The notes under the pieces are model-generated. The model was not told where the DNA came from. It searched no databases and worked only from the letters and a program-made list of their open reading frames with translations. A stretch of 38,557 nucleotides of DNA from a virus, in IMG/VR virus record IMGVR_UViG_3300010160_000109, positions 1 through 38,557 of that record; one strand, 5' to 3'. The translations under genes were made by a program, and so were the position numbers. Of the stretch, positions 8,286-36,585 are shown piece by piece; position 1 is the stretch's first letter, and each line of letters begins with the position of its first letter.

Positions 8286-8327
8286 TAAGACAATAAATTT
8301 TTTACCAACCTCACAAAGGAACTTATC

Positions 8328-8822
8328 ATGGCTCTCCCGACAAAAGTGTTACCCGGCTTTACCGCCACAATGTATGCCCAACCCAGCGCAACGCCAACAC
8401 CAATCACGACTGCAAACTTGAGCGTTTTAGGCAGCATTTCGCCACTGGCAATCAGCGGCAACTTGGTGCCTGTTGAAGCAATCCCGGCATTTGGACAAGA
8501 CGATGCTGTAGCATCATTTGCTGTGGCAGGTTCCCGTCAAAGCGACAAAATTCCTGTGCAATCAGCGCCAACAAGCATGAGCATCACAGCGGCATGGAAC
8601 CCAAGCGATACCGTGTTGCTGCTCTTGCGTGCAGATGCCTACAACGGGACTATTGATCGCACCTACGTAATTGCCGCAACTGATGGAACCAATACCATCT
8701 ATTACGCTTTCAACGGCAGGGTTAGCCAGTGGACAATTGACAGCGCACCCGGTGCCGAGGCCAAAGTTAACTTTACGATCCAACCCCGTGGCAACCAGTA
8801 CGGCTGGAGCAACACGGTATGA
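8328..8822 (+). CDS. major tail tube protein
   Basis: The 164-residue protein should polymerise into the tail tube. It is rich in small residues and beta-strand pattern, with a segment VQSAPTSMSITAAWNPSD, a loop region DRTYVIAATDGTNTIYYAFNGRVSQWTI and a final strand AEAKVNFTIQPRG, as in siphovirus tube proteins with an Ig-free single domain. A clear AAAGGA lies 9 nt upstream of the ATG. It is followed by two tiny frames and then by the gp10-like and tail chaperone genes. Confidence 0.85.
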   Translation: MALPTKVLPGFTATMYAQPSATPTPITTANLSVLGSISPLAISGNLVPVEAIPAFGQDDAVASFAVAGSRQSDKIPVQSAPTSMSITAAWNPSDTVLLLLRADAYNGTIDRTYVIAATDGTNTIYYAFNGRVSQWTIDSAPGAEAKVNFTIQPRGNQYGWSNTV

Positions 8823-9800: not shown

Positions 9801-10268
9801 ATGACAAGACTATCCAGCGCACTGGGAACAGGCGCAGAATTCCGCATCAAAAAGTTTGAACTTGGAGGCCACGCCTTTCGAGTGCGAGTGCCATTGGTGA
9901 GCGAAAGCGATGCCATGCACAGCCGCATCATCAAACCAGACAGCGCAGCAATTGACAAAATTTACGCTGACTTGACAAAATCCCTAGACGAATTTAAAAC
10001 GCTAAAAAACGAAGAATTAGTTTTTTCAGAAAACGATGTTGTCGTGTCTGGGCGCTCAATGCGAGAGGCCGCTACAAACAAGGCAATGATGGAGGCACGC
10101 ATCACCGAAATGATTCGCCTGCTCCAACCAGAAAACCCGGCTAATACACTGGACGACATTACCTACGCTGAAATTGAACTGGAATGGCCTTTGAGCGTCC
10201 AGTTGGCCTTGGTAGAAAAGATTAATGAAGTTATCAGCCCAGGCTATAAGGAGAGCCGGGGAAACTAA
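9801..10268 (+). CDS. tail assembly chaperone gpG-like
   Basis: The 155-residue product is the short form of a tail assembly chaperone that binds the tape measure during tail building. Assignment rests on position just upstream of the tape measure and on a perfect frameshift arrangement: the gene ends with the slippery heptamer GGGAAAC (10259-10265) directly before its TAA stop, and the -1 frame is open into the next gene. Ribosomes that shift make a fusion of about 274 residues, close to the size of lambda gpGT. The C-terminal half is helical and acidic (ITYAEIELEWPLSVQLALVEKINEVI). Confidence 0.8.
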   Translation: MTRLSSALGTGAEFRIKKFELGGHAFRVRVPLVSESDAMHSRIIKPDSAAIDKIYADLTKSLDEFKTLKNEELVFSENDVVVSGRSMREAATNKAMMEARITEMIRLLQPENPANTLDDITYAEIELEWPLSVQLALVEKINEVISPGYKESRGN

Positions 10269-10624
10269 TTGGCTCGTTGAAAGAACAAGTCGCAGCGGCG
10301 ATGGTCTTCAACGGGCATACACCAGAATCAATTGCTGCCCTAGATCAAATCACCATGCTGCAAATCCAAACAATGTACGCTGACGGGGTAATTGGCAATC
10401 ATGGCCTGCTGGCGCAGCTTGCAGTATTGACAACCGGCGTATTCAACTACATCCGTCCCCCCCACGCAGCCCCGTACAGGCTTGCAGGCACGCTCGGCGC
10501 AGTGCATGACTACCTGTACCCTCCAGCAAGCCAGGAACAGCTTGCAGCGCAGGCCAATGACAGCCTGTTAGCGTTTATGGTGCAGGCACCAGGCTTTAGC
10601 AAAGGAAGATTTAATCATGGCTAA
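10250..10624 (+). CDS. tail assembly chaperone T extension (reached by -1 frameshift)
   Basis: This frame supplies the T part of a gpGT-type chaperone. It is open from 10250, just after a TAA at 10247, and is entered at GGGAAAC from the preceding gene, giving a junction ...SRGN-LIGSLKEQVAAAM. A TTG at 10277 could serve as an independent start but has no ribosome binding site. The product part (about 118 residues after the slip) includes FNGHTPESIAALDQITMLQIQTMYADGVIG and ends 8 nt inside the tape measure gene. Confidence 0.78.
   Translation, partial: GEPGKLIGSLKEQVAAAMVFNGHTPESIAALDQITMLQIQTMYADGVIGNHGLLAQLAVLTTGVFNYIRPPHAAPYRLAGTLGAVHDYLYPPASQEQLAAQANDSLLAFMVQAPGFSKGRFNHG
10259..10316 (+). 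promoter_or_regulatory. programmed -1 ribosomal frameshift signal
   Basis: The slippery heptamer G GGA AAC (10259-10265, read in the gpG frame) is followed by a 6-nt spacer that includes the gpG stop, then a 10-bp stem: GCTCGTTGAA (10272-10281) pairs with TTCAACGGGC (10307-10316) with one U-G pair. The 25-nt loop can fold further (GTCGC with GCGAT). Heptamer, spacer and stem match the geometry of known -1 frameshift sites; lambda uses GGGAAAG. Confidence 0.85.
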
Positions 10625-14948: not shown

Positions 14949-17900
14949 ATGGTTGCAACACTTATTGCGTATGCAGCAAGTTTATTAACAGCAGCCGAGG
15001 CAAGCGCAGCATTTGCAACAGCAGCCGCTACTTTTGCTGTTAATTTTGCCGTCAGCTATGTTGTCAGTCGGGTGTTTGCGCCAAATGATCCATCAGCAAA
15101 CCAACCCGTAGATCAGGGCGTTAGACAGCAGGTAGCACCCAATACCACCAACTCAATTCCAATTGTATATGGCAGTGCTTTTATGGGCGGCACATTTGTT
15201 GATGCTGTTTTAACCACAGATCAAAAAACAATGTACTACGTGCTGGCAATTAGCAGCATTAGCCCTAATGGGCAATTTAGTTTTGATCGCACACAGTTTT
15301 ATTACGGCGACCGTTTGGTTGCTTTTGATGGCAGCGATTTAACCAAAGTTGTCAGCTTAACAGACGGTGCTGGCAATGTTGATACAAAAATCAATGGTTT
15401 TCTTTTTATCAATTTGTACACATCCACCAATGCTGGGGTAATCACAAACGTTACAGGCACAGCGCCAAGCACTTACATGGGCGGCTCTGACATTGCATCT
15501 GCTGAACGCTGGACAGGAACCCGGCAAATGAACGGGCTGGCCTTTGCAATTGTTAAACTTATTTACAGCCAAGATGCTGGCACAACAAATCTACAGCCAA
15601 TTACCTTTAACGTCACGCAAAATCTAAATGGCACTGGCGTTGCAAAACCTGGCGATGTTTGGGCAGATTATTTGGGCAATGATGTTTACGGCGGCGGCAT
15701 GGTGGCAGGTTTGATTGACAGCGCATCAGCCACGGCACTCAACACCTACGCCGATCAGACGATTACTTTTACTAATAGCAGCGGCAACCCAGCAACCCAG
15801 GCTAGGTATCGCATCAACGGCGTCCTAGACACGGGGCAAAATGTCTTAGCTAACATTGATCGCATTATGCTGGCCTGCGATTCTTGGAATGCTTATAACG
15901 CAACTTTTGGTAAATGGTCAATTGTCATCAATAAAGCAGAAAGCACATCCTACGCTTTTGACGACACTAACATCATTGGCGAAATTAAAGTCAGTCTGAC
16001 AGACATTACAAATTCAATCAATCAAATTGAAGCGCAATTCCCTAACAAAGTAAACCGAGATCAGCGGGATTTGGTTTATTTAGAAACCCCTGCTAATTTG
16101 CTATATGCCAACGAGCCGATCAATAAATTTTCTTGCAATTTTGATTTGATAAACGAGTCTGTGCAAGTTAGTTATCTGGCAAACCGAGTGCTTGAGCAGG
16201 CCAGAGAAGATTTAATTGTCACCATCAATGCAGCATATCCCGCGATACAACTAGATGCTGGCGATGTAGTGTCAATTACAAACACTAGCTACGGCTGGAG
16301 TGCTAAGTTATTTCGGGCAATGAAAGTTAGCGAGATATCGTTGCCAGACGGAAATCTTGGCGCAAGTCTAGAATTGTCAGAATACAACGCTGCCGTTTAT
16401 GACGATGTTGCAATTACTCAATACAGCCCAGCACCAAACAGCAATCTGTCGTCTGCAAGTTTCTTTTCGGCACTTAGCGCACCTGTGGTTAGCGCATCAC
16501 GCCCGACTAACAATGTACCCTCATTTGATATCCAAATTACAACGCCAAGCATAGGACGGACAACAAGACTGACATTGTTTTATTCTACGTATTCCTCGCC
16601 TACAGCAAGCCAATGGACTCTGCTAGATACTTTTGTTTCGTCAGCCTCGACACCTTTAACGCCAAGCACAACATTTACATTTTTAAATTTAATATTGCCA
16701 GCAGGAACATATTATTTTGGCTTCATTGCTGCGAACGATATTTCGCAATCGCAAATTAGCGGCACAAGTTCTGGGCTAGTCTGGGCACCAACAGGCACAG
16801 TCGGCACGCAAACCGCAATCGTGTATCTATACCAGTGGGCAAACAGCACGCCAGGCAACCCAAGCGGTAACTCAACTTGGACATGGGCAACCGCATCTAA
16901 CGCATCGTACACAGGCGGCAACGGCTGGACGGTGGCAATACCTGCTAACCCAGGCACGGCAAGCACTTACCTTTGGCAAGCCAGCACCAGTATCTCAGCA
17001 TCTGCCGGGACGACAACGACAACTGTGTCATGGGCCAGCGGCTTTAGCCTGCAGGCAATCGCTCAGAACGGCGCTACAGGAAGCACAGGCGCTACTGGTG
17101 CCACAGGCAACAGCGCAGTGATCTGCTACGCCATATACGCTGGCAATCCAACAGTCACCGGCTCGGCAGTCACTATTGCTGGGACAGGTTTGCCAAACAC
17201 AACCAGTTTCTCGCCTACGTCTGCAACCGCATTTTCTTATGCCGTGCAAACCCCTGGAGCAGCGCAGGCAATGTTTCAAAGCGATGGCATTTACTATCCA
17301 GTTGCTAATCAAACAATTTGGAACACGCCATATTTGTCAAATCTGAAAGTTGGCAATCTATCAGCAATTAGCGCCGATCTCGGGACAATTACAGCGGGTT
17401 CAATAAGTTCCAACACTTACACAATGACATCAACAAATGGTTTTGTGATGAGACTAGGACAAAGTTCGGGTGCTGTTCCAATTGCATTACAAATTACTGG
17501 AATTACTGTTAATGATTGGGCTATCCACACTTACGGGAGTATGTTGATAGGAGATATATTTAGTGGAAATATTCGCTCGGGATATATGTATAGTTCAAAT
17601 TCCGATGCGGCTTATACTGGCATATTCATGAATGCCCTTTGCAATAATGTCGGCATTTATGGACGAGGTAATGCATCATATGGTGGCGCTAGTCACGCAA
17701 TCTTGGGGCAATGCTTTGGTGGCGCTACAGGAAATTTAAATACAAGCGGCATTGTAGGTACCACAATAAATTACGATTTTTATGCAGACGGGGCAGGCGT
17801 TAACTATGGGCCATTTACTGGGGCGCACGATGCGCTTATACCTATAGATGCAACAATAACTGAAGGCGACATTGTTATAGATTGCGGAGTTGCAGCACGC

Positions 17901-18365
17901 AAAAATTTTAGCAACACAATATGTTTTGTGGAAACTAGCAGCAGCCCAAATCAAAAGGGCGTTGTAGGAATGTTGGTAGGAAGTTCACGGCTGCTTGATG
18001 TTGAATTTTTACCTGCTGCTTTAAAAGATGATCCAACAATTACTATTGAGACAGTCATGGAGATGGGCATAGAAACCGAACGTGAAATAGTAACCGTTAA
18101 TCCAAAACCGGAAGTAGCATCCCTTGCACTTACGCACAAAGTTATTACGATGAATGCCTTGGGAGAAGGACAAATTAACGTATGCGGAGAAGGTGGCAAT
18201 CTGCAAATTGGCGATATGATCGTAACAAGTTCAATGCCTGGCAAAGGTATGAAGCAACCAGACGACATTGTTAGAAGCATAACAGTGGCAAAATCACGAG
18301 AAAATGTGACTTTTATTTCGTCAACTGAGGTTAAACAAGTTGCTTGCATTTATCTTTGCGGGTAG
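14949..18365 (+). CDS. tail tip / host specificity protein (gpJ-like) with fibre C-terminus
   Basis: The 1138-residue protein is likely the central tail tip protein that contacts the receptor. It starts with a hydrophobic Ala-rich helix (residues 1-45). NSIPIVYGSAFMGGTFVDA (about 70-88) follows, as in phage tail tip proteins. A hub region runs to about 500, with a fibronectin-like part at about 510-600. A short collagen-like stretch GATGSTGATGATG sits at about 709-721. SNLKVGNLSAISADLGTITAGS (about 797-818) is a common fibre-entry motif. The last 190 residues form a beta-rich C-terminal head. The next gene starts 71 nt later after a good GGAAGGGG site. Confidence 0.85.
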   Translation: MVATLIAYAASLLTAAEASAAFATAAATFAVNFAVSYVVSRVFAPNDPSANQPVDQGVRQQVAPNTTNSIPIVYGSAFMGGTFVDAVLTTDQKTMYYVLAISSISPNGQFSFDRTQFYYGDRLVAFDGSDLTKVVSLTDGAGNVDTKINGFLFINLYTSTNAGVITNVTGTAPSTYMGGSDIASAERWTGTRQMNGLAFAIVKLIYSQDAGTTNLQPITFNVTQNLNGTGVAKPGDVWADYLGNDVYGGGMVAGLIDSASATALNTYADQTITFTNSSGNPATQARYRINGVLDTGQNVLANIDRIMLACDSWNAYNATFGKWSIVINKAESTSYAFDDTNIIGEIKVSLTDITNSINQIEAQFPNKVNRDQRDLVYLETPANLLYANEPINKFSCNFDLINESVQVSYLANRVLEQAREDLIVTINAAYPAIQLDAGDVVSITNTSYGWSAKLFRAMKVSEISLPDGNLGASLELSEYNAAVYDDVAITQYSPAPNSNLSSASFFSALSAPVVSASRPTNNVPSFDIQITTPSIGRTTRLTLFYSTYSSPTASQWTLLDTFVSSASTPLTPSTTFTFLNLILPAGTYYFGFIAANDISQSQISGTSSGLVWAPTGTVGTQTAIVYLYQWANSTPGNPSGNSTWTWATASNASYTGGNGWTVAIPANPGTASTYLWQASTSISASAGTTTTTVSWASGFSLQAIAQNGATGSTGATGATGNSAVICYAIYAGNPTVTGSAVTIAGTGLPNTTSFSPTSATAFSYAVQTPGAAQAMFQSDGIYYPVANQTIWNTPYLSNLKVGNLSAISADLGTITAGSISSNTYTMTSTNGFVMRLGQSSGAVPIALQITGITVNDWAIHTYGSMLIGDIFSGNIRSGYMYSSNSDAAYTGIFMNALCNNVGIYGRGNASYGGASHAILGQCFGGATGNLNTSGIVGTTINYDFYADGAGVNYGPFTGAHDALIPIDATITEGDIVIDCGVAARKNFSNTICFVETSSSPNQKGVVGMLVGSSRLLDVEFLPAALKDDPTITIETVMEMGIETEREIVTVNPKPEVASLALTHKVITMNALGEGQINVCGEGGNLQIGDMIVTSSMPGKGMKQPDDIVRSITVAKSRENVTFISSTEVKQVACIYLCG

Positions 18366-18436
18366 AATTACAGTACAAGAATCGTAGCCCTGCGAGTTAG
18401 TAGGGAGCGTCACTACCCGAGGAAGGGGAATCAGTC

Positions 18437-18922
18437 TTGGCAATCTTTAACAAGAATACCCTGGCGCAAGTCAGCGGCTTTAGCAACAGCATCATTGCTG
18501 GCGAGTTGGTTTACAACCAAAAAACTTACTGGAATCTTGCGCTCACCAACACGGCTGGCACTGCAGTTGATTTAACCGGGGCCACAATTGATGCGTCAAT
18601 TTTGCGCCGAGCAGTCACAAACATCATTGACACCCGCAACGGGTTGACATTTGACATTGCCGATTACACGGTTACAACTCCTAGCCCAATTGCTTTAACG
18701 ATATCTAACCGTGTCAATGCCTCTGGCACGTTTACCCTGCTGATTGACGAGTCAACCTGGAGCGTGGCATCCAACGATACGCAGCTAGACATCAATGCAA
18801 CAAACTGCGTAGGATTCAGTGGCAGACTAAAAATAGCTTTTCCAGCATCTGGCACCACGCCTGCTGATGACAGCATAATTTTCTTGCTGTTTCTCGTGCG
18901 CTCTGATGGAGTCACAAACTAA
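18437..18922 (+). CDS. tail tip / baseplate-associated structural protein
   Basis: A 161-residue beta-rich protein with TTG start (GGAAGGGGAA 7-16 nt upstream). The pattern YWNLALTNTAGTAVDLTGATIDASILRR, followed by FTLLIDESTW, resembles the N-terminal domain of BppU-type upper baseplate proteins, which read as a polymer-binding Ig-like domain that attaches fibres to the tail. It stands between the J-like protein and the fibre genes, and its stop is directly before the next ATG. The role in fibre anchoring is inferred. Confidence 0.55.
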   Translation: MAIFNKNTLAQVSGFSNSIIAGELVYNQKTYWNLALTNTAGTAVDLTGATIDASILRRAVTNIIDTRNGLTFDIADYTVTTPSPIALTISNRVNASGTFTLLIDESTWSVASNDTQLDINATNCVGFSGRLKIAFPASGTTPADDSIIFLLFLVRSDGVTN

Positions 18923-19743
18923 TGGCAAACTTAGTAGTCAGCGTTGCCGATGGCAACAATATCAATGTAGTTGTCACACCGCCAACAACCCAAATTGTCA
19001 CGGTAGATAGAGGCGTGGCTGGCCCAACGGGTGCAGCAGGCGCTACTGGCGCCACTGGCGCAACAGGAGCCACTGGAGCCACGGGTGCCACGGGTGCCAC
19101 AGGCGCAGGCGTTGTTGTTGGTGGCACAGTAGGCCAGGTGCTTGCTAAATTGAGTTCAACAAACTACGACACAAATTGGGTTACGGCGGGAGGCTTGGGC
19201 ACCGTCACATCTGTTGCTACGGGCACCGGTTTATCAGGTGGGCCGATAACCACATCGGGCACGGTTGCCCTTGCAAATACGGCAGTAACTGCTGGCACCT
19301 ACACCTCAACAAATCTGACTGTAGATGCCCAGGGCCGAATCACAGCAGCATCAAGCGGTGGCGGCAGCGGGACGGTTACAAGTGTTGCCGCTACAGTACC
19401 ATCTTTTTTATCGGTTGCTGGCTCGCCAATCACTACGTCAGGCACCATTGCAATCAGCTATTCGGGCACGGCTTTGCCAATCGCAAACGGTGGTACAGGA
19501 GCAACATCAGCGGCAACGGCTCTTACTGCGCTTGGCGCTTACGCAGCAACTAACCCGTCAGGATTCACGTCAACGCAATACGCCACAATCTCAAACGACA
19601 CCACAACAAATGCAGTGCGATATCCGTTATTTGCTGATGCAACAAGTGGCAATCTGACAACCGGCTACGCATCGTCTACAAAATTAAAATATAACCCATC
19701 CACAGGTGCGTTAACGGTTTCTCAACTAATTATTGGCCCGTAA
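18922..19743 (+). CDS. collagen-like tail fibre protein
   Basis: The 273-residue protein has a globular start (residues 1-30), then a collagen-like Gly-X-Y stretch of about 8 GAT repeats (about 33-60), then fibre repeats of the type GTVTSVATGTGLSGGPITTSGTV and GTALPIANGGTGATSA that are shared with the next gene. Gly-Ala-Thr triplets in phage fibres form triple helices without hydroxyproline. The protein ends with GALTVSQLIIGP, a typical fibre junction. It is presumably a side fibre. Confidence 0.8.
   Translation: MANLVVSVADGNNINVVVTPPTTQIVTVDRGVAGPTGAAGATGATGATGATGATGATGATGAGVVVGGTVGQVLAKLSSTNYDTNWVTAGGLGTVTSVATGTGLSGGPITTSGTVALANTAVTAGTYTSTNLTVDAQGRITAASSGGGSGTVTSVAATVPSFLSVAGSPITTSGTIAISYSGTALPIANGGTGATSAATALTALGAYAATNPSGFTSTQYATISNDTTTNAVRYPLFADATSGNLTTGYASSTKLKYNPSTGALTVSQLIIGP
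19018..19110 (+). repeat. collagen-like triplet repeat (GAT codon triplets)
   Basis: About 30 codons of Gly-X-Y coding repeat, mostly GGN-GCN-ACN in 9-bp units such as ggcgccact, ggcgcaaca and ggagccact. Synonymous third positions vary between copies, so the amino acid pattern is conserved more than the DNA. The tract is prone to gain or loss of 9-bp units. Confidence 0.9.
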
Positions 19744-19749
19744 AAAATC

Positions 19750-21978
19750 ATGGGAAAAATTACATTTGAATCTGCGCTCGGGGGCGTTGCCGATTTAGTT
19801 GGCCCAGCTACTGCGACAACGGTAACGCTTAATTTACCAGCTACTTCTGGAAATATTGTCGGCACAGGCTCTACTGGCGTTGTCACAACAGCAATGATCT
19901 CGGGCCAAATTGCGGTAGCGCAAGGCGGCACAGGCGTGGCTACCAGTACCGGCACAGGCTCAGTTGTCCTTAATACATCACCGACTTTGATAACCCCGGC
20001 TCTTGGTACACCGGCATCTGGGGTATTAACAAACGCAACCGGCCTGCCATTAACCACAGCAGTCACTGGCATATTGCCGGTAGCAAACGGCGGCTCTGGC
20101 ACCGCAACGCCTGCAATCGTCGCAGGTACAAATGTCACGGTGTCAGGCAGTTGGCCTAACCAGACTGTAAATGCAACAGCCAGCGGCAGCGGGACAGTCA
20201 CTAGCGTGGCAACCGGCACAGGTTTAACAGGTGGGCCAATCACAACAAGCGGCACTGTAGCCCTTGCAAACACCGCTGTTATTGCAGGAAACTACACCGC
20301 AGCTAACATAACTGTTGATGCCCAGGGGCGGCTTACAGCGGCTGCAAGTGGCTCTGCTGGCACCGTTACCAGCGTTTCGGTAGTATCTGCCAATGGCTTG
20401 GCTGGTACTGTTGCTACGGCTACATCAACGCCTGCAATTACTTTGTCAACCAGCATCACTGGCGTGCTAAAAGGCAACGGCACGGCAATCAGCGCAGCAA
20501 CCGCAGGGACAGACTATCTAGCACCTGGCGGCGCATTAGGCACACCGGCAAGCGGAACGCTGACTAACACCACGGGACTGCCTTTAACTACGGGTGTTAC
20601 CGGCACGCTACCAGTTGCTAACGGCGGCACCGGGACAACTACGCCAAGCATCGTTGCAGGAACAAATGTAACCGTTAGCGGGACATGGCCCAATCAAACA
20701 ATTAATTCCACTGCTAGTAGTTCTGGCACAGTTACCAGCGTAAATGTTTCTGGCGGTACAACAGGCTTGACTACATCGGGTGGGCCAATTACTACGTCTG
20801 GAACAGTCACTTTATCAGGCACATTAGCAGTTGCCAACGGTGGAACGGGCGTTATTACAAGCACAGGAACTGGCAGCGTTGTGTTATCAACATCACCAAC
20901 GCTAATTACCCCTGCGCTTGGTGTGCCAAGTGCATTAGTTGGAACAAATATTACTGGCACGGCAGCAGGGTTAACGGCTGGAACAGTAACTATTAATGCA
21001 AATCTTACTGGTGATGTAACTAGCGTTGGCAATGCTACTACGTTAACAAATGCACCAGTAATTGCTAAAGTATTAACTGGTTATGTTTCTGGTGCTGGTA
21101 CAGTTGCAGCAACAGATTCAATTTTGCAAGCAATTCAAAAATTAAATGGGAATGATGCTACCAATGCCAATTTGACAGGCCCAATAACATCAACTGGAAA
21201 TGCAACAGCAGTAGCCGCGCAAACTGGAACAGGTTCTACATTTGTCATGCAGGCCAGCCCAACATTGACAACTCCTAACCTTGGTACTCCTTCAGCGGCG
21301 ATACTTACTAGCGCAACCGGGTTGCCGTTAACAACCGGCGTGACAGGTACGCTGCCGGTAGCAAATGGCGGAACAGGCACAACAACACCTAGCATTGTTG
21401 CTGGCACTAATGTGACGGTATCTGGCACCTGGCCTAACCAAACAGTAAATTCAACTGCAAGTGGATCAGGAACAGTCACAAGCGTTGCCGCTACAGTGCC
21501 AAGTGTATTTAGCATTTCTGGATCGCCAATTACAACCTCTGGCACGTTGGCAATAACTTATTCCGGTACGGCTTTGCCTGTAGTAAACGGTGGCACTGGA
21601 GTCACAACAAGCACGGGAACTGGTGATAATGTTTTATCAACGTCACCGACTTTAGTTACGCCTATTCTTGGCACGCCAACCTCTGGCACGCTTACCAATG
21701 CTACGGGTTTGCCATTATCTACGGGCGTGACAGGCAATCTCCCCGTTACAAATTTAAACTCTGGAACATCTGCAAGTTCAAGCACATTTTGGCGTGGGGA
21801 TGGTGTTTGGGCAACTGTGTCTGGAGGCGGCGCAACGCCAATTGTGGAAAATGAAAACACAATCTCAGCAAATAGAACAATAACGGTTGGCAGCAACGGC
21901 ATGAGCGTGGGCTATATGACTGTAAACACTGGCGTATCGGTAACAGTGCAGCCAAATCAGCGCTGGGTAGTACTTTAA
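19750..21978 (+). CDS. long repeat-rich tail fibre protein
   Basis: The 742-residue protein consists mainly of Thr/Gly/Val-rich beta repeats. Recurring units are GTVTSV, G-P-I-TTSGTV, LPVANGGTGTTTPSIVAGTN, SPTLITPALGTPASG and TNATGLPLTTGVTG. The NGGTG element is common in phage side fibres. One block of about 160 bp (near 20.57-20.73 kb and 21.31-21.48 kb) is nearly duplicated. The C-terminal part (TPIVENENTISANRTITVGSNGMSVGYMTVNTGVSVTVQPNQRWVVL) is a typical trimeric fibre end. Reverse-strand frames over this gene are repeats read backwards, not genes. Confidence 0.85.
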   Translation: MGKITFESALGGVADLVGPATATTVTLNLPATSGNIVGTGSTGVVTTAMISGQIAVAQGGTGVATSTGTGSVVLNTSPTLITPALGTPASGVLTNATGLPLTTAVTGILPVANGGSGTATPAIVAGTNVTVSGSWPNQTVNATASGSGTVTSVATGTGLTGGPITTSGTVALANTAVIAGNYTAANITVDAQGRLTAAASGSAGTVTSVSVVSANGLAGTVATATSTPAITLSTSITGVLKGNGTAISAATAGTDYLAPGGALGTPASGTLTNTTGLPLTTGVTGTLPVANGGTGTTTPSIVAGTNVTVSGTWPNQTINSTASSSGTVTSVNVSGGTTGLTTSGGPITTSGTVTLSGTLAVANGGTGVITSTGTGSVVLSTSPTLITPALGVPSALVGTNITGTAAGLTAGTVTINANLTGDVTSVGNATTLTNAPVIAKVLTGYVSGAGTVAATDSILQAIQKLNGNDATNANLTGPITSTGNATAVAAQTGTGSTFVMQASPTLTTPNLGTPSAAILTSATGLPLTTGVTGTLPVANGGTGTTTPSIVAGTNVTVSGTWPNQTVNSTASGSGTVTSVAATVPSVFSISGSPITTSGTLAITYSGTALPVVNGGTGVTTSTGTGDNVLSTSPTLVTPILGTPTSGTLTNATGLPLSTGVTGNLPVTNLNSGTSASSSTFWRGDGVWATVSGGGATPIVENENTISANRTITVGSNGMSVGYMTVNTGVSVTVQPNQRWVVL
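20571..21480 (+). repeat. duplicated fibre module (two copies)
   Basis: Two copies of the block encoding TTGLPLTTGVTGTLPVANGG and the following TPSIVAGTNVTVSGTWPNQT unit occur at about 20571-20730 and 21310-21480, with third-position changes between them. Related single units occur near 20.03-20.20 kb. This points to internal duplication, and recombination among the units could change fibre length. Confidence 0.7.
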
Positions 21979-21994
21979 TTTTTGGAGCAATAAA

Positions 21995-22768
21995 ATGGCA
22001 GTGATTATCAACGGCAACAATACGCCAACGGCTGGCGGTGTAGGGTATGGCAATGCGACTGAATTAGCTTTTACGGCAGCGGGAACAGCAGGCCAGGTAT
22101 TAACCTCGGCAGGCGCATCAGCACCAACGTGGGCAACACCAACATCTGGCGGCACTGTTACTAGCGCAAGTGTTGTCTCAGCAAATGGATTTGCAGGAAC
22201 GGTAGCAACCGCCACAACCACACCAGCGATCACGCTTACTACATCCATCACAGGTGTTTTAAAAGGCAACGCAACGGCAATATCGGCGGCAGTAGCGGGG
22301 ACAGATTATGTTACTCCAACAGGCACAGAAACGCTTACTAACAAGACGTTAACAAGCCCAACATTGACAACACCTGCACTTGGCACACCAGCAAGCGGCA
22401 CATTATCATCTTGCACTGTAGACGGAACGGATGCGGTAGGTTTTAGAAACATACCAATTAACAGCAACAGCGCAGCTTACACAGCAGTTTTAGCAGACTC
22501 AGGCAAAGTAATCTTTCACCCGTCAACAGACGCAAATGCTCGGACATTTACTATTCCAGCAAACTCATCTGTGGCCTACGCACTTGGCACAGCAATCACA
22601 TTTATTAATATGACTGCCGCAGTAGTAACCATTGCAATAACCACAGACACCATGTATCTCAGCAGTGCCGGTACTACAGGATCACGCAGTTTGGCTCAGT
22701 ACGGGTCAGCAACTGCAATTAAAATGACTAGTACAACTTGGTTAATTTCTGGTTCTGGCCTTACTTAA
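21995..22768 (+). CDS. tail fibre protein
   Basis: The 257-residue protein continues the fibre block. It shares GTVTSASVVSANGFAGTVATATTTPAITLTTSITGVLKGN with the preceding fibre (SVVSANGLAGTVATATSTPAITLSTSITGVLKGN), so the two are related by duplication. ETLTNKTLTSPTLTTPALGTP is a widely distributed phage fibre motif. The C-terminal part (DANARTFTIPANSSVAYALGTAITFINMTAAVVTIAI, then WLISGSGLT) is the typical beta-structured tip. GGAGCAA upstream serves as the ribosome binding site. Confidence 0.82.
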   Translation: MAVIINGNNTPTAGGVGYGNATELAFTAAGTAGQVLTSAGASAPTWATPTSGGTVTSASVVSANGFAGTVATATTTPAITLTTSITGVLKGNATAISAAVAGTDYVTPTGTETLTNKTLTSPTLTTPALGTPASGTLSSCTVDGTDAVGFRNIPINSNSAAYTAVLADSGKVIFHPSTDANARTFTIPANSSVAYALGTAITFINMTAAVVTIAITTDTMYLSSAGTTGSRSLAQYGSATAIKMTSTTWLISGSGLT

Positions 22769-22777
22769 AAGTTTTAT

Positions 22778-23638
22778 ATGAGCGGTTCACTTCAAGTTGT
22801 TTTCCAAAACCAAAGATCATTTGGTGGCGCAATAACGCCCACAGTTGAATACCTAGTAGTGGCTGGTGGAGGTGGTGGTGCTGGTGCTGATGCTGGTGCA
22901 AGAACAGGAGGTGGCGGTGCAGGTGGATATAGAACTGCATCAGGATTTGCAGTTGCATCTGGTACACCAATTACAGTAACAGTTGGAACTGGAGGCGTTG
23001 GCGGTGTTCATTATTATGACTTGCCAGGCAAAGGTAATAATTCTGTTTTTTCTACTATTAATACTACTGGCGGTGGCCGAGGTTCAAACGATGGGGACAA
23101 TGCTGGGGCGGGGGGTTCTGGGGGCGGTTCGTCTTATTTAGGGAGAAATGCAGGCGCTGGCAATCAAGGTGGATATACGCCAGTAGAAGGTTATGCTGGT
23201 GGAGTTGGAACAAATAATTCTGGCGGTGGTGGCGGCGGTGGTGGTGCTGTTGGTAGTGATGGAGTTGGTACAGGAAACGCAGGTGGAGGCATTGGCGGTT
23301 TGTCATCTATTACAGGCACGTCTACTTATTACGCTGGTGGTGGTGGTGGTGGAATATGGACAGGTGCTGGGCCTGCTGGTGTAGGTGGTGCTGGTGGTGG
23401 TGGTAACGGCGGTCTGCAAGGTGTTAGCGGCACAAATGGCAGCGCAAACACTGGTGGCGGTGGTGGTGGTGCCGGCAACGCAGGAGGCGTGGGAGGGGCT
23501 GGAGGTTCTGGTATCGTAATTATTAGATACGCAGACACCTATTCAGCAGCAAGTGCAACTACTGGATCACCAACCGTTACCGTTGCAGGGGGCTACAGAA
23601 TCTACACTTGGACAGGCTCTGGCACAATTACTTTTTAA
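22778..23638 (+). CDS. glycine-rich tail adhesin, copy 1
   Basis: The 286-residue protein has an N-terminal docking segment (SGSLQVVFQNQRSFGGAITPTVEYLVVAGG), a long central region of Gly-rich blocks (GGGGGGGGAVG, AGGGGGGIWTGAG), and a conserved end SGIVIIRYADTYSAASATTG with a C-terminal beta hairpin (TVAGGYRIYTWTGSGTITF). Poly-glycine sandwiches of this kind occur in receptor-binding adhesins of tailed phages, where loops between Gly-rich strands bind the receptor. It is followed by a paralogue with nearly identical ends but a different middle. Confidence 0.8.
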   Translation: MSGSLQVVFQNQRSFGGAITPTVEYLVVAGGGGGAGADAGARTGGGGAGGYRTASGFAVASGTPITVTVGTGGVGGVHYYDLPGKGNNSVFSTINTTGGGRGSNDGDNAGAGGSGGGSSYLGRNAGAGNQGGYTPVEGYAGGVGTNNSGGGGGGGGAVGSDGVGTGNAGGGIGGLSSITGTSTYYAGGGGGGIWTGAGPAGVGGAGGGGNGGLQGVSGTNGSANTGGGGGGAGNAGGVGGAGGSGIVIIRYADTYSAASATTGSPTVTVAGGYRIYTWTGSGTITF

Positions 23639-23651
23639 ATAATAAAAAACT

Positions 23652-24518
23652 ATGAGTGGCGCACTTCAAGCTGTTTTTCAAAACCAAAGATCATTTGGAG
23701 GAGGAATAACGCCCACAGTTGAATACCTAGTAGTTGCGGGGGGTGGTGGTGGCGGTGCTAATGGCGGAGGAGGGGGTGCTGGTGGATATAGAACAGCCAC
23801 TGGATTGACTGTTGCATCTGGATCCGCAATTACTGTTACTGTTGGCGGCGGCGGTGCAGCACCGGGATCAGGAGGAGGAACGTATAAATCTGGCAACAAT
23901 GGTGCGGATTCAGTTTTCGGGATTATTACCTCTGTAGGAGGCGGTGCAGGTGGTGGTGCAGATGGCACAAACGGCAATGGTAGCGGAAATACTGGCGGTT
24001 CTGGCGGTGGCGGTGGATGGGGTTTAAGTTCTAGTTCAGGTGCTGCCGGAACATCTAATCAAGGTAATGCTGGCGGTAATGGTGGTGGTGGTGGCTCAAC
24101 TTCTGGCGGTGCAGGTGGCGGTGCAGGCGCTGCTGGAGCAAATGCTTCTGGTGCAAATGCAGGTATTGGTGGTATTGGGCTAAGTTCCTCTATTTCTGGC
24201 ATTGCAACATATTATGCAGGAGGCGGCGGTGGCTCAAGTCAAGTTGGTACTAACGGCGCTGGAGGTTTAGGCGGCGGCGGTGCTGGTGGATTAGGAGTTA
24301 GTGTAGGAGTAAATGGTACCGCAAATACTGGTGGCGGCGGCGGTGGTGGTGCAAGTGGAGTCACAGCTTATGGGGGTGTTGGTGGTTCTGGCATAGTAAT
24401 TATTCGATATGCAGATTCCTACTCAGCAGCCAGCGCAACCACTGGATCGCCAACCATCACAGTAGCCGGTGGTTACAGGGTTTATAGTTGGACAGGCTCT
24501 GGCACAATTACTTTTTGA
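23652..24518 (+). CDS. glycine-rich tail adhesin, copy 2
   Basis: The 288-residue paralogue of the preceding gene. The first 34 residues differ at only a few positions (SGALQAVFQNQRSFGGGITP) and the last 40 match nearly throughout (IVIIRYADSYSAASATTG...YRVYSWTGSGTITF). The Gly-rich middle (AGAAGANASGANAGIGGIGLSS, GGGGSSQVGTNGAGG) has different loops. This suggests duplication followed by divergence of the binding region, as expected for alternative receptor recognition. It is linked directly to the next small virion-related gene. Confidence 0.8.
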   Translation: MSGALQAVFQNQRSFGGGITPTVEYLVVAGGGGGGANGGGGGAGGYRTATGLTVASGSAITVTVGGGGAAPGSGGGTYKSGNNGADSVFGIITSVGGGAGGGADGTNGNGSGNTGGSGGGGGWGLSSSSGAAGTSNQGNAGGNGGGGGSTSGGAGGGAGAAGANASGANAGIGGIGLSSSISGIATYYAGGGGGSSQVGTNGAGGLGGGGAGGLGVSVGVNGTANTGGGGGGGASGVTAYGGVGGSGIVIIRYADSYSAASATTGSPTITVAGGYRVYSWTGSGTITF

Positions 24519-24525
24519 GAATAAT

Positions 24526-24885
24526 ATGGCACATTTTGCAAAATTAGATCAAAATAATGTTGTTATTGAAGTTAATGTGATACATAACAACGAATTGCTA
24601 GACAACGGCATTGAAAGCGAAGCGAAAGGCATTGCGTTTTTAACTGATTGGAGTGGTGGCTACACCAACTGGAAACAAACCAGCTATAACGCCACATTCC
24701 GTAAAAATTATGCTGGTGTAGGGTATACCTACTACAAACATTTAGATGCTTTTGTGCCGCCAAAATATTACGCAAGTTGGCTTTTAGATGGGCAATCTTG
24801 CCAATGGATATCACCCGTTGCATACCCCACTGACGGCAAAATGTATAAATGGGATGAATCAACAATTGCATGGATTGAATCATGA
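24526..24885 (+). CDS. tail fibre-associated protein
   Basis: The 119-residue protein starts at ATG 24526 (MAHFAKLDQNNVVIEVNVIHNNE). Its middle, NWKQTSYNATFRKNYAGVGYTYYKHLDAFVPPKYYASW, and end, CQWISPVAYPTDGKMYKWDE, match a family common in aquatic phages and encoded next to fibre genes, probably a fibre assembly or tip protein. The frame is open further upstream into the previous gene, but that would add an unrelated sequence. Its stop overlaps the first lysis gene (ATGA). Confidence 0.7.
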   Translation: MAHFAKLDQNNVVIEVNVIHNNELLDNGIESEAKGIAFLTDWSGGYTNWKQTSYNATFRKNYAGVGYTYYKHLDAFVPPKYYASWLLDGQSCQWISPVAYPTDGKMYKWDESTIAWIES

Positions 24886-25049
24886 CAGAAACCGAAGCCA
24901 GGCTTAACAGCCACGAAGCAGTTTGTGCAGAGCGTTACGCACAAATTAATGCCCGGTTAAAACGCATTGAAAGCGTATTGATGCGAGTTGCAGGCGTGAT
25001 AATAATTTCTATGGGCGGCGTGGTGTGGGCGTCAATGACGTTGCGGTAA
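24882..25049 (+). CDS. small membrane protein, holin-like (coil then TM)
   Basis: A 55-residue protein too short for many gene finders. The first 30 residues are a charged amphipathic helix (RLNSHEAVCAERYAQINARLKRIE) and residues 33-51 form one transmembrane segment (VLMRVAGVIIISMGGVVWAS). The layout resembles XhlA-type holin partners. Start overlaps the previous stop (ATGA) and the TAA overlaps the next ATG (TAATG), so it is embedded in the lysis operon. Confidence 0.7.
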   Translation: MTETEARLNSHEAVCAERYAQINARLKRIESVLMRVAGVIIISMGGVVWASMTLR

Positions 25050-25201
25050 TGGAATTCTTTGATGCGCTGGCAAAGGGTTGGCCCATGCTGTTGGCGCTGA
25101 TTACGCTAATTATTGTGCTGGCTAAGATGGACATAAAGATTGCTGTGCTTGAGGAAAAAGTAAAAAGTTTGTTTGAGATTTTTAACAGGAAAGACAAATG
25201 A
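25049..25201 (+). CDS. small membrane protein, holin-like (TM then coil)
   Basis: A 50-residue protein with an N-terminal transmembrane segment (PMLLALITLIIVLAKM, about residues 12-27) followed by a short coiled coil (KIAVLEEKVKSLFEIFNRKDK). It mirrors the topology of the preceding gene. Starts at TAATG and ends at ATGA overlapping the next gene. Likely a lysis accessory or holin/antiholin component; no sequence family is recognised. Confidence 0.65.
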   Translation: MEFFDALAKGWPMLLALITLIIVLAKMDIKIAVLEEKVKSLFEIFNRKDK

Positions 25202-25422
25202 AAGCCAAACTCACTTTTGCTGTGACGTTAATGGTAAGCCTAACGCTATGCGTTGTTGTTGTTGGCATGGTTGCGGTGTTAATGATTGGCCTGTTTGATG
25301 AAAAAGTGGACAACTCGGAAATTTTTAAGTTAATTAGCCCAGCTTTCCAGACAATTGTTGGCGGCTTTATTGGGCTGTTGGCTGGCGTAAAACTATCACA
25401 TGATGATGAGGAATCAAAATGA
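25198..25422 (+). CDS. holin candidate, two TM segments
   Basis: The 74-residue protein has two transmembrane helices (about residues 7-30 and 46-66: LISPAFQTIVGGFIGLLAGVKL) separated by a short charged loop, and a hydrophilic acidic tail (SHDDEESK). This is a class II holin topology. It overlaps both neighbours by 4 nt and precedes the 3TM-type holin. Which of the four small membrane proteins sets lysis timing cannot be told from sequence. Confidence 0.65.
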   Translation: MKAKLTFAVTLMVSLTLCVVVVGMVAVLMIGLFDEKVDNSEIFKLISPAFQTIVGGFIGLLAGVKLSHDDEESK

Positions 25423-25805
25423 TTGGACTAGACGCAATCCTTGGCATTGGCGGCAAGCTGATTGATAAACTTATTCCTGATCCTGCTGCCCAAGATGCAG
25501 CACGGCTGGAGTTGCTCAAGCTACAACAGAGTGGTGAACTGGCGGCAATGACTGCCCAGACGGAAATTAACAAGGCCGAGGCCAGCAACCCCAGCGTGTT
25601 TGTATCGGGCTGGCGTCCAGCAATTGGCTGGGTTTGCGCTCTGGCGATGGGGTATCAGTACTTGGCGCGTCCCATGATGGTTGCCTTTATGCCTGCTTTG
25701 TCATTCCCTGGCCTTGACGATAACCTTTGGCAGTTAATGATGGGTATGTTGGGCCTAGGCGGTTTGCGGACGTTTGAGAAAACCCAAGGCGTAGCTGCAA
25801 AGTGA
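25419..25805 (+). CDS. holin, GTA 3TM-like
   Basis: The 128-residue protein begins with an amphipathic helix (LIDKLIPDPAAQDAARLELLKLQQSGELAAM) and then FVSGWRPAIGWVCALAMGYQYL and LWQLMMGMLGLGGLRTFEK. The phrase sGWRPaIGWvC is the hallmark of the 3TM holin family found in gene transfer agents and many phages. It would form membrane lesions for endolysin release. It ends in GTGA, overlapping the endolysin start. Confidence 0.8.
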   Translation: MIGLDAILGIGGKLIDKLIPDPAAQDAARLELLKLQQSGELAAMTAQTEINKAEASNPSVFVSGWRPAIGWVCALAMGYQYLARPMMVAFMPALSFPGLDDNLWQLMMGMLGLGGLRTFEKTQGVAAK

Positions 25806-26224
25806 CACCGCATTTCACGCTTGCTGAGCTTACGCACACCGATCACCGCAGCTTAGACAACACGCCAAACGCTGGCGAACTGGCAAACCTCAAACGCTTG
25901 GCTGAGTTTCTTGAAGTGGTAAAAACCACGTTAGGCGGCAAGCCTGTAATGATCTCCAGTGCCTACCGTTCCAAGGCCGTAAATGACGCAGTGGGCAGCA
26001 AAGATACCTCAAGCCATAGGCTAGGGTTAGCTGCTGATTTCAAGGTGCCTGGGATGATTCCTGATGCCGTGGTGAGGGCGTTGCTCAAACTGCCGTTTGA
26101 TCAAATCATCAGAGAATTCTCAGACCCGGTGGCTGGTGGTGGCTGGACGCACATCAGCATTGCTGACAAGCCCCGGCGTCAGGCGCTCATCATCGACAAG
26201 GCTGGAACTCGGCTTTTTGTTTAG
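25802..26224 (+). CDS. endolysin, peptidase M15A family
   Basis: The 140-residue enzyme should cut peptidoglycan peptide cross-bridges. The zinc ligands of M15A peptidases are visible: His72 and Asp79 in SSHRLGLAADF and His117 in GGGWTHISI. The substrate-site stretch MISSAYRSKAVNDAVGS is also typical. No signal peptide is present, so release depends on the upstream holins. The start is GTG 25802, overlapping the holin stop. The gene's 3' end overlaps the convergent wHTH gene by 35 nt and no bidirectional terminator is visible there. Confidence 0.93.
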   Translation: MTPHFTLAELTHTDHRSLDNTPNAGELANLKRLAEFLEVVKTTLGGKPVMISSAYRSKAVNDAVGSKDTSSHRLGLAADFKVPGMIPDAVVRALLKLPFDQIIREFSDPVAGGGWTHISIADKPRRQALIIDKAGTRLFV

Positions 26225-26441
26225 TCGGATAAGGGCAATCGTCAGGCACATATGCCAAGCAATGCACGGCAGCATACTTAGTAGCGCCACTAACCCAGCG
26301 ATCAATATACACGTCAGGCATCAGCGCAAGGCTGCGACTTACTCCTGTTGGCGTTAACTTTAGTGCAAGTGCAAGTTCAAGAGCAGTCATGCCGTCTGGC
26401 GCCTGGGCCAAAGCGTCCCTAATCTTTTCTGAAATTACCAC
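26190..26441 (-). CDS. winged-helix DNA-binding-like small protein
   Basis: The 83-residue protein is read from GTG 26441 (GAGG 7 nt upstream). EKIRDALAQAPDGMTALELALALKLTPTGVSRSLALMP reads as a helix-turn-helix of the type seen in small wHTH regulators, followed by a wing-like VYIDRWVSGATKYAAVHCLA. It is the last gene of the leftward operon. A role in regulating phage or host transcription is inferred. Its end overlaps the endolysin gene on the other strand. Confidence 0.65.
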   Translation of the reverse strand: MVISEKIRDALAQAPDGMTALELALALKLTPTGVSRSLALMPDVYIDRWVSGATKYAAVHCLAYVPDDCPYPTKQKAEFQPCR

Positions 26442-35172: not shown

Positions 35173-35761
35173 GATACAGTACAAAGCGACAGAGGATTTG
35201 ATACCCTACGCACGCAACAGCCGCACGCACAGCGCCGAGCAAGTGGCACAAATAGCCGCCAGCATACGGGAATTTGGCTGGACAAACCCTATATTGATAG
35301 ACGGCGAAAACGGCATTATTGCCGGGCATGGCAGAGTATTGGCAGCGCATAAGCTAGGCGAAACCCAGGTGCCGACAATTGAACTTAGTCACATGAGCGA
35401 CACTCAAAAACGGGCATACATCATTGCTGACAACAAGCTGGCGTTAAATGCAGGATGGGATAGTGAGATGCTGGCGCTGGAAATTGAAGATTTGCGAGAT
35501 GCAGGATTTGATTTAGATATATTGGCTTTTGACCCTTCAGAATTGCAAAATTCTGCTGTTGATTATTCTGTGCTAGATGATGATGATGTTGAAGATCAAC
35601 TAAACGAAATGGCAAACGGTGTGCGGAAAGCAATACAAATTGAATTCGAACCAGAGCATTATGAAGAAGCGCAAGAATTGGTAAAATTTTGGCGAGATAA
35701 TAAATCTTATGTTGGCATGATGGTTATAAATCATTTACGAAATGAAAAAAACAAATTGTGA
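35165..35761 (+). CDS. ParB-like nuclease domain protein
   Basis: The 198-residue protein has the ParB/Srx fold: LIPYARNSRTHSAEQVAQIAASI (about 12-34), GWTNPILIDGENGIIAGHGRVLAAHKLG (about 38-65; GHGRxxAA is the nucleotide-binding box), and PTIELSHMSDTQKRAYIIADNKLA. The C-terminal half is acidic with a final helix pair (EPEHYEEAQELVKFWRDNKSYVGMMV). In phages such proteins often stand next to or are fused with DNA methylases. Its stop overlaps the glycosyltransferase GTG (GTGA). Confidence 0.88.
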   Translation: MIEIQYKATEDLIPYARNSRTHSAEQVAQIAASIREFGWTNPILIDGENGIIAGHGRVLAAHKLGETQVPTIELSHMSDTQKRAYIIADNKLALNAGWDSEMLALEIEDLRDAGFDLDILAFDPSELQNSAVDYSVLDDDDVEDQLNEMANGVRKAIQIEFEPEHYEEAQELVKFWRDNKSYVGMMVINHLRNEKNKL

Positions 35762-36585
35762 AAGTTTTCACGTTTTTTTACAATCGTTATGAAACTGCCA
35801 CCACAAGCAAAGCATTAAATGAAAACGGCATAGCACACAATGTTTTAATACATAATGCTGATGATTTGCAAAAGTTCGTGAAAGGCGGCACGATACACGG
35901 CAAAGTTACAGTGACTAACAATAATAAAGGTTTAGCCTACCAACGCAACACAGCGTTAGATATGATAGAAACCGGTGAATGGGCGGTGTTCATGTGTGAT
36001 GATTTTCAAAAAATTAAAGCATATTCAAAAGAATTTATATTAAGCAAAACTCAATCAATAGATATTAATCACCAAAACCAAAACAAATACAGATTAAAAA
36101 ATAAAATTACATTAAAAGAAATGTTTAATTGGTTTCCAAAATTAATTGAACTTGCTGAACAAAATAATATCCACTTGATTGGTTTCGGTTTGCATGACAA
36201 CCCAATGAACTTGCGTAAAAAATTTACGACAAAAGGTTTAGCAGACGGGCGTTTTTGGCTTGTGCGTAAAGCGCAATACAAATTCGATATAAACGCTCAA
36301 TTAATTGACGATGTAGCTTGGACAGCCGAAAACTTGGTGCGACATAAAAACGTGCTGATTTTGAATTGGTGCGTCCCTTATTTTGAGCGATATACCGCTG
36401 GCGGTTTTGGCAGCACAACAGAGCGCAAAGCACTTCGCATAAAAGAATGCGCGTATTTGGCAAACAAATTTAACCCTTTGGTAAAGATAGCAGAGAAGCC
36501 TGGTTGGGATTACGGCACACATATCCGGATATACGGGTCAGATGGCAACATCGCAGCAATCAGGCAAAAAAGAGGCCTTTTATGA
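35758..36585 (+). CDS. TET-associated glycosyltransferase-like protein (TAGT)
   Basis: The 275-residue protein starts with a Rossmann-like strand (MKVFTFFYNRYETATTSKAL), followed by NNKGLAYQRNTALDMIETGE (about 55-74) and WAVFMCDDFQKIKA with Asp81-Asp82 in the place of a metal-binding DxD. LADGRFWLVRKAQYKFDIN and LIDDVAWTAENL continue the GT-A pattern. Phage TAGT proteins of this pattern accompany TET-type dioxygenases and glycosylate 5hmC. It overlaps the TET-like gene by 4 nt, so the pair is probably translated together. Start is GTG 35758. Confidence 0.75.
   Translation: MKVFTFFYNRYETATTSKALNENGIAHNVLIHNADDLQKFVKGGTIHGKVTVTNNNKGLAYQRNTALDMIETGEWAVFMCDDFQKIKAYSKEFILSKTQSIDINHQNQNKYRLKNKITLKEMFNWFPKLIELAEQNNIHLIGFGLHDNPMNLRKKFTTKGLADGRFWLVRKAQYKFDINAQLIDDVAWTAENLVRHKNVLILNWCVPYFERYTAGGFGSTTERKALRIKECAYLANKFNPLVKIAEKPGWDYGTHIRIYGSDGNIAAIRQKRGLL

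Follow-up and report, generated by a model that had tools for sequence, protein, structure and literature searches.

In the branched receptor-binding systems of phages such as G7C, K1-5, KP32 and KP34, a gp10/gp9-like domain resides in one tail protein and a conserved peptide of 7-29 residues at the N-terminus of a neighbouring protein is thought to dock, while the rest of that neighbour varies (PMC6872550 and PMC13082707, in the portions of these reports available to us). The accessible part of PMC6872550 describes a T4gp10-like domain paired with a conserved N-terminal peptide as short as seven residues, and KP32 provides a precedent of the same kind (PMC13082707, likewise in part). In T2, S16 and PP01, gp38 is a Gly-rich adhesin with variable loops at the distal end of the fibre, mounted on gp37, and its N-terminal 113 residues decide the fit between the two (PMC12892980, excerpted text). 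In gp24 of Pam3, finally, a conserved Gly-rich stem is combined with a hypervariable distal tip for which receptor binding has been proposed (PMC9608196, excerpted text).

The locus described here consists of a fibre gene ending in a domain that we call the socket, followed by two Gly-rich proteins, A and B, each beginning with a short conserved peptide that we call the plug. It is best read as a variation on the arrangement of branched phage receptor-binding proteins in which a T4gp10-like domain is combined with a conserved peptide, and it shows the same division between a conserved N-terminal peptide and a variable remainder. Unlike the domains of those systems, the socket forms the C-terminal end of the fibre instead of a branch point within the chain, and it resembles gp9/XD1 more closely than XD2/XD3. 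The modules that it would mount belong to the Gly-rich, Lcl_C, laminin-G, fn3 or propeller kinds, in place of the depolymerases of the Klebsiella cases; across the related loci, though not in the window's lineage, the socket gene and the plug gene mostly overlap at stop and start, and the phages concerned are mostly uncultured. The likeness to gp38 lies in a Gly-rich, variable-loop adhesin, putatively at the distal fibre, whose N-terminus would decide the fit; however, the attachment region of gp38 spans about 113 residues, whereas here 15 conserved residues precede a linker and the Gly-rich domain. The predicted fold of that domain is like those of Pam3 gp24 (7ypx/7yfw; PMC9608196, in part) and of the Gly-rich tail-tip protein of Bxb1 (9d93), but in Pam3 it lies within the fibre chain, whereas here it belongs to a separate protein with a plug in front and a hairpin behind. 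The literature searched, mostly without subscription papers, yielded no description of the exact plug/socket arrangement. We consider it fairly probable that A and B are fibre-tip adhesins, that their plug docks onto the C-terminal socket of the fibre and that the modules behind the plug are interchangeable.

The window and its two glycine-rich proteins

The window, i.e. the whole stretch of DNA that was analysed, is a 38,557-base IMG/VR virus record that carries the structural genes of a tailed phage as a cassette (terminase, portal, head proteins, tape measure and tail proteins). The large terminase shares 69.6% identity with its counterpart in Methylophilaceae phage P19250A, the sole record above 60%, and a host among the Methylophilaceae is therefore likely. 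The plug is absent from ten tail-region genes of P19250A, the nearest cultured phage, as judged by inspecting their ends by eye. No near DNA match was found for positions 14949-26300 among phage records or for 21995-24885 among plasmids. Elsewhere in the window, the neighbouring genes at 4425-5765 and 5829-6863 each have a match in phrog_10, the PHROG family of major head proteins (E 1e-30 and 1e-17), and are possibly tandem head proteins, and the gene at 35758-36585, beside a ParB-like gene, has a weak match to the beta-glucosyl-HMC-alpha-glucosyltransferase family (phrog_842, E 3e-7).

The genes of interest lie on the plus strand in the order fibre gene (21995-22768), A (22778-23638), B (23652-24518) and a small conserved gene (24526-24885). 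The 257-aa fibre protein has no match in a Pfam search; its C-terminal domain matches the PHROG 'minor tail protein' family phrog_8780, and the 115-residue socket, or dock, occupies 22421-22765. A and B (286 and 288 aa, at the positions given in the preliminary description) each comprise a plug (22778-22822 in A, 23652-23696 in B), a Gly_rich_2 domain and a conserved C-terminal hairpin segment of 33 residues delimited with a hairpin HMM (23537-23635 and 24417-24515). The small gene encodes 119 aa (phrog_7759, E 6e-42) and has a counterpart 3' of the single adhesin copies of two related phages, L086 and L015.

A and B belong to the sequence family Gly_rich_2 (PF21722; E 4e-19 and 1.7e-19)/phrog_2295 (E 5e-40 for A), with Pfam scores of 70 and 71.2 bits against a curated cut-off of 24.3. 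Of each protein, the Pfam model takes in just the Gly-rich domain (residues 22-251/253) and leaves plug and hairpin outside. Adhesin A has no known sequence relative among 50,697 phage records, a PDB sequence search with the adhesin profile returned only the Pam3 fibre (E 0.1), and there is no sequence match between the adhesins and gp38. An AlphaFold2 model of B, computed with 14 relatives (pLDDT 87.4, pTM 0.85), was compared by VIA-align with known structures and matched the Bxb1 tail tip (9d93_Qb; Z 14.2, 170 residues, 3.2 Å) and the Pam3 fibre (7ypx, Z 13.7; 7yfw, Z 13.1), the alignments with these Gly-rich domains covering 168-170 residues at 2.7-3.2 Å; matches to the ALK/LTK Gly-rich domains reached Z 5. 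The model thus places B in the fold of phage Gly-rich domains of the Pam3/Bxb1 type. Foldseek against the PDB gave nothing at E ≤ 0.001 for B, with matches of Pam3/Bxb1 type at 3e-3 to 0.6; S16 gp38 (6F45) was not among the matches that it listed, which is not evidence of a different fold. As regards a polyglycine II helix sandwich of the S16/PP01 gp38 type (PGII helices in a lattice), the Gly runs of B have high pLDDT and no DSSP class in this model; in an alignment of 15 relatives the invariant columns of the middle are mostly Gly, in runs. The family match, the model and its Bxb1 and Pam3 relatives agree with the adhesin-like Gly-rich fold suggested in the preliminary description, and A and B are likely adhesins.

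The hairpins had been described as C-terminal. They are indeed conserved ends of A and B (91%), but an HMM built from C-terminal copies also recognises the segment elsewhere: among the 100 proteins searched it is C-terminal in 17 and N-terminal in 3, where it precedes the Gly-rich domain (L056:3341-4198, L078:8001-8816 and L193:8465-9343; E 5e-10 to 5e-5). Given these three plug proteins, the hairpin looks like a relocated or circularly permuted part and not like a separate end. Rows of several Gly-rich genes with another N-terminal motif (QQLQA...WP) were also observed (L027:961-3400 and L033:4640-8100); one gene of these arrays stands behind a small gene resembling that 3' of A and B.

Conserved ends and turnover of the middles

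A and B are 91% identical in their first 32 aa (87.5% in nucleotides) and 91% in their last 44 aa (83% in nucleotides), whereas the middle is 55% identical in protein and 57% in DNA over 199 aligned columns, with a further 24 gap columns; Gly-rich tandem ORFs with alike ends and unlike middles, as originally noted, are thus what the alignment shows. Without Gly-Gly columns the identity of the middles falls to 30%. They are homologous beyond composition all the same, since their global alignment score of 492.5 exceeds all of 300 shuffles of one sequence (264 ± 15, maximum 310). Calling the ends 'near-identical' was an overstatement, although their conservation is real: different codons are used at 9 of the 28 identical N-end residues and at 18 of the 41 identical C-end residues, and the similarity is therefore old and kept at the protein level.

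Comparison with relatives places these differences in context. Two IMG/VR contigs (L003 and L004) represent the same phage as the window (99.99%), and three further lineages (L014/L015/L023, L086 and L008) are 88-93% identical to it over most shared genes. L086 and L015 have one plug gene each at the corresponding place, with a different middle, while L008 has two Gly-rich domains fused in a single ORF, which is still open where the contig begins. The order within this fusion (L008:2-997) is hairpin, a short linker GVLPTVSA and then VEYLVV, so that it does not represent two separate genes. In each of the ten pairs that A, B, L086, L015 and L008 form, the middles reach only 53-58% identity (30-35% once Gly-Gly columns are removed), whereas the C ends are 84-93% identical in the same 10/10 pairs and the N ends 74-97% in the six pairs that exclude L008, whose second domain lacks a plug. 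At the nucleotide level, the window and L086 share 96% in the tail protein gene at 14949-18365, 86% in the fibre gene, 81-83% in the N end, 57-59% in the middle, 79-80% in the C end and 81% in the downstream gene. In their degree of conservation the ends hence roughly equal the neighbouring tip genes, and the middle is the exception. Both comparisons locate the variable part in the Gly-rich middle of the two genes, and the loop turnover that had been anticipated, with loops less conserved than ends, is what the relatives display. In outline, each of the two proteins starts with a peptide of 15 residues, continues through a short linker and then has a Gly-rich domain in which the Gly runs are retained and the intervening segments turn over.

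These data bear directly on the suggestion that A and B arose by a recent tandem duplication after which one copy could vary while the other kept its function, loops being swapped through the shared ends. The tandem order, the alike ends and an identical 29-base stretch behind the plug of both genes (ATAACGCCCACAGTTGAATACCTAGTAGT) speak for such an origin, as does the restriction of two copies to the window's lineage: among 77 distinct plug genes for which 1.5 kb downstream could be inspected, a second plug gene occurs within that distance in only one, that of the window's lineage. However, the middle of A is no more similar to that of B (55%) than either is to the copies of other phages, including single ones (53-58% in all pairs), synonymous differences are numerous even in the ends, and neither copy is the conserved one, as both turn over. 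A recent duplication is therefore not supported and was set aside as unlikely; recombination through the shared ends would be compatible with the data. Variation driven by a diversity-generating retroelement (DGR) was likewise rejected: a PF00078 reverse transcriptase, detected in 3 of 14 controls by the same search, was found in 0/1 record, which may be a fragment.

A plug peptide genetically tied to the fibre end

The plug of B, MSGALQAVFQNQRSF, is the commonest form (160 of 178 tag ORFs, overlapping loci counted), and that of A, MSGSLQVVFQNQRSF, is a rare variant. As residues 1-15 it fronts proteins with different bodies that have only these 15 residues in common. The 178 tag ORFs correspond to 100 distinct complete proteins and to 94 clusters at 90% identity; in the resulting set of 94 representatives the two L003 copies were replaced by the identical window genes. 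Pfam assigns Gly_rich_2 to 50 of these, Lcl_C to 25, fn3 to 4, and laminin G and a beta-propeller to 1 each; none of the 8 Pfam families detected is a depolymerase family. That one plug fronts unrelated modules in this set argues for docking, as does the prediction that it is unstructured in the monomer: residues 3-18 of the B model have pLDDT below 50. The exact degenerate pattern occurs in at least 119 stretches of viral_contigs and in none of genome_contigs, and a 20-residue query of plug plus linker against the 50,697 phage records retrieved only a chance match to a Serratia phage RIIA gene (45%, E 4). Other recurring plug types are MSGIQQMLTGGTYKP, MSGI(L/Q)QNFAYGR and MSGVLNLLL, and MSGIMLNLAGGSFGG is the plug of a further pair type.

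The module class behind the plug mostly follows the phage line. It is the same in 66 of 80 pairs of plug loci that share at least three backbone ORFs at ≥75% (23% expected by chance; these close pairs are not independent), and free shuffling of module classes among close relatives was rejected on this count. Fast turnover in close relatives would then be a matter of sequence within a class. Grouping by two shared ORFs at 30% puts 74 of 80 plug loci in one group, with 18 groups at 70%, so the exact plug is found mainly within one broad phage group. Module and plug classes in these tests and in the covariation analysis below are regular expressions on protein ends and not the result of a family search.

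The ORF directly upstream ends in the socket domain for 104 of 105 distinct plug genes, the exception being B, whose upstream neighbour is A. These upstream domains are 65-100% identical to window positions 22421-22765, and 102 of the 104 fibre ends finish with SGSGLT. A socket scan combined with an HMM over all fetched loci, which mix plug-found and socket-found ones, gave 232 distinct socket/next-gene pairs (two of them without a next ORF). In 232/232 the socket closes its protein, with 0-3 residues left after it; the following gene starts at -1 in 163 pairs, at +2 in 41 and at +4 in 13 (217/232), and the next protein begins with MSG in 199. This position of the socket, C-terminal and directly upstream, again favours docking.

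The two also covary. Usable pairs, i.e. those with a socket of at least 95 residues and a complete next ORF of at least 100, number 200, and 106 of them (loci L237-L390) were found through the socket. In these 106, socket identity correlates with the identity of residues 2-15 of the next protein (r 0.47, 0/5000 permutations) and hardly with module class (r 0.05, 24/5000 permutations); the values for all 200 pairs are 0.56 and 0.06. Taken singly, positions through residue 15 give r values of 0.19-0.37, and none beyond residue 15 exceeds 0.15; as blocks, residues 18-32 and the final 30 residues also show a correlation with the socket, but a weaker one (r 0.19 and 0.16). The sequence of the socket thus predicts residues 2-15 of the next gene and hardly the module, which is a further reason to think of docking. 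Adjacent genes are co-inherited, and part of the linkage and covariation could stem from this. Still, the C-terminal gp9/gp10-like domain of the fibre is genetically tied to the plug peptide, and the docking-type N-terminal segment of the preliminary description gains, on sequence evidence, a probable counterpart upstream.

The junction between the two genes suggests another role for the first 15 codons, namely in translation or at the RNA level (coupling to the fibre gene, ribosome loading). The fibre stop overlaps the plug-gene start (ATGA) in 103 of the 104 cases with a socket directly upstream, or 103 of all 105, and a GGAG-like Shine-Dalgarno motif lies inside the last codons of the fibre in 102 of these 103. 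Nevertheless, codons 2-15 show synonymous variation but encode nearly invariant residues, which places the constraint on the protein; the Shine-Dalgarno-like motif is upstream, outside the plug; and A and B retain the peptide despite having neither overlap nor motif. A starts 9 bases behind the fibre stop, and the window fibre still ends in SGSGLT without a GGAG-like motif (22735-22777). A purely translational role is thus very improbable. As a speculation, the coupling might match the supply of adhesin to that of fibre and be relaxed once two adhesins share a socket.

An assembly role for A and B, as chaperones of the fibre or transient caps that do not stay on the virion, would suit a gene right behind the fibre, where tail-fibre-assembly proteins are encoded; a PHROG called tail fiber assembly is reached by 16 of the 94 plug proteins, and transient chaperone caps have been proposed for Alteromonas phages (PMC10579305, in the part available). 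The structural matches of B, however, are tail-tip and fibre proteins (Bxb1, Pam3), the chaperone of Pam3 is another gene with another fold (PMC9608196, in part), and the diversity of modules with hypervariable segments suits receptor binding, which makes the chaperone role distinctly unlikely.

Socket fold and alternative pairings

The 115-residue socket was modelled by AF2 with pLDDT 93.9. Its model matches a capsid spike of phage Pa223 (Z 12.6), the KP1 baseplate (12.1), the Solidus tailspike (10.9), CpaA (6o38; 10.5), residues 71-183 of CBA120 TSP4 (10.4), T4 gp9 (9.6), T4 gp10 (8.8) and StcE (4dny; 8.5), and there were 298 matches at E ≤ 0.001 among predicted viral proteins; a PDB sequence search with the socket returned only a chance match to PCNA. 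The predicted fold is thus T4 gp9/gp10-like, with the XD1/gp9 type as the best fit, and the match of both the A/B-type and socket folds to phage tail parts supports the reading of A and B as tip adhesins. According to the accessible text of the TSP4 paper (PMC8825819), CpaA, StcE and gp9 are relatives of the XD1 domain, which is called a spacer unable to bind trimeric partners across the axis, the chain leaving through both faces. In the window-type fibre the chain ends at the socket, which would leave the distal face free and remove this obstacle.

In the same text the StcE and CpaA versions of the fold are described as glycan-binding, and the socket, with Z 8.5 and 10.5 to these proteins, could itself bind sugar. 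It might then be the receptor-binding tip, the adhesins attaching elsewhere on the tail. We regard this as quite improbable: socket identity is 73-100% among the best 80 of 573 to 581 relatives (depending on the scan), so that the domain is more conserved than the adhesins, unlike a receptor-binding surface, and it covaries with the plug.

Returning to docking, further support comes from two phages (L034 and L013) that hold two socket/plug pairs differing in sequence: besides a standard pair, each has a second, divergent socket-like end followed by a gene that overlaps it and starts with a different plug (MSGIMLNLAGGSF, MTGIIGAFIGGSY). The coordinates are L034:7467-8300 with 8306-8810 and L013:7275-8147 with 9823-10366. 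Judged by eye, the sequence of the second end resembles the socket, which suggests a like fold; at its threshold the socket HMM gave no match to it. Precedents point the same way, namely the T4gp10-like domain with its conserved peptide and the N-terminus of gp38, each as far as the sources consulted in part describe them.

Sockets combined with other plugs occur in Limnohabitans phage YIMV22061, Synechococcus phage S-B28 and 98 Gordonia phage records, and in contigs of cultured bacteria (Bradyrhizobium yuanmingense, Herminiimonas sp. CN and Afipia clevelandensis). Some of the 15 bacterial matches are unclean (180 residues beyond the match in L404; next ORF at +41 bases in L400) and two are incomplete (L405 is cut off and L392 runs off the contig); the next proteins mostly begin with MS, MT, MA or MG, without the NQRSF type. 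The presence of the socket in cultured bacteria and phages makes the arrangement testable without the uncultured host.

Judged from these genomes, a fibre-tip socket with a 15-residue plug is widespread in environmental phages. The plug would dock the adhesin onto the C-terminal fibre domain, any receptor-binding module bearing the right plug could be mounted there, and the variable Gly-rich segments would contact the host surface. In the window's lineage two adhesins with near-identical plugs and one kind of socket may give mixed or heteromeric tips with two specificities. More tentatively, and short of an expectation, aquatic phages might share a standard tip connector with a few mutually exclusive socket/plug types that serve several unrelated modules, a single phage carrying either two orthogonal pairs (as L034 and L013 may do) or, as in the window, two adhesins that compete for the socket, with coupling lost and tips mixed within or between virions.

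Receptor-binding proteins diverge fastest, which makes them difficult to spot in uncultured phages. If the proposed arrangement is true, a conserved 115-residue domain followed by an MSG-type peptide would point to the tip adhesin in hundreds of environmental genomes and show where it begins and ends, plug specificity would be testable with short peptides, and the window would offer a natural example of a phage with two tip adhesins.
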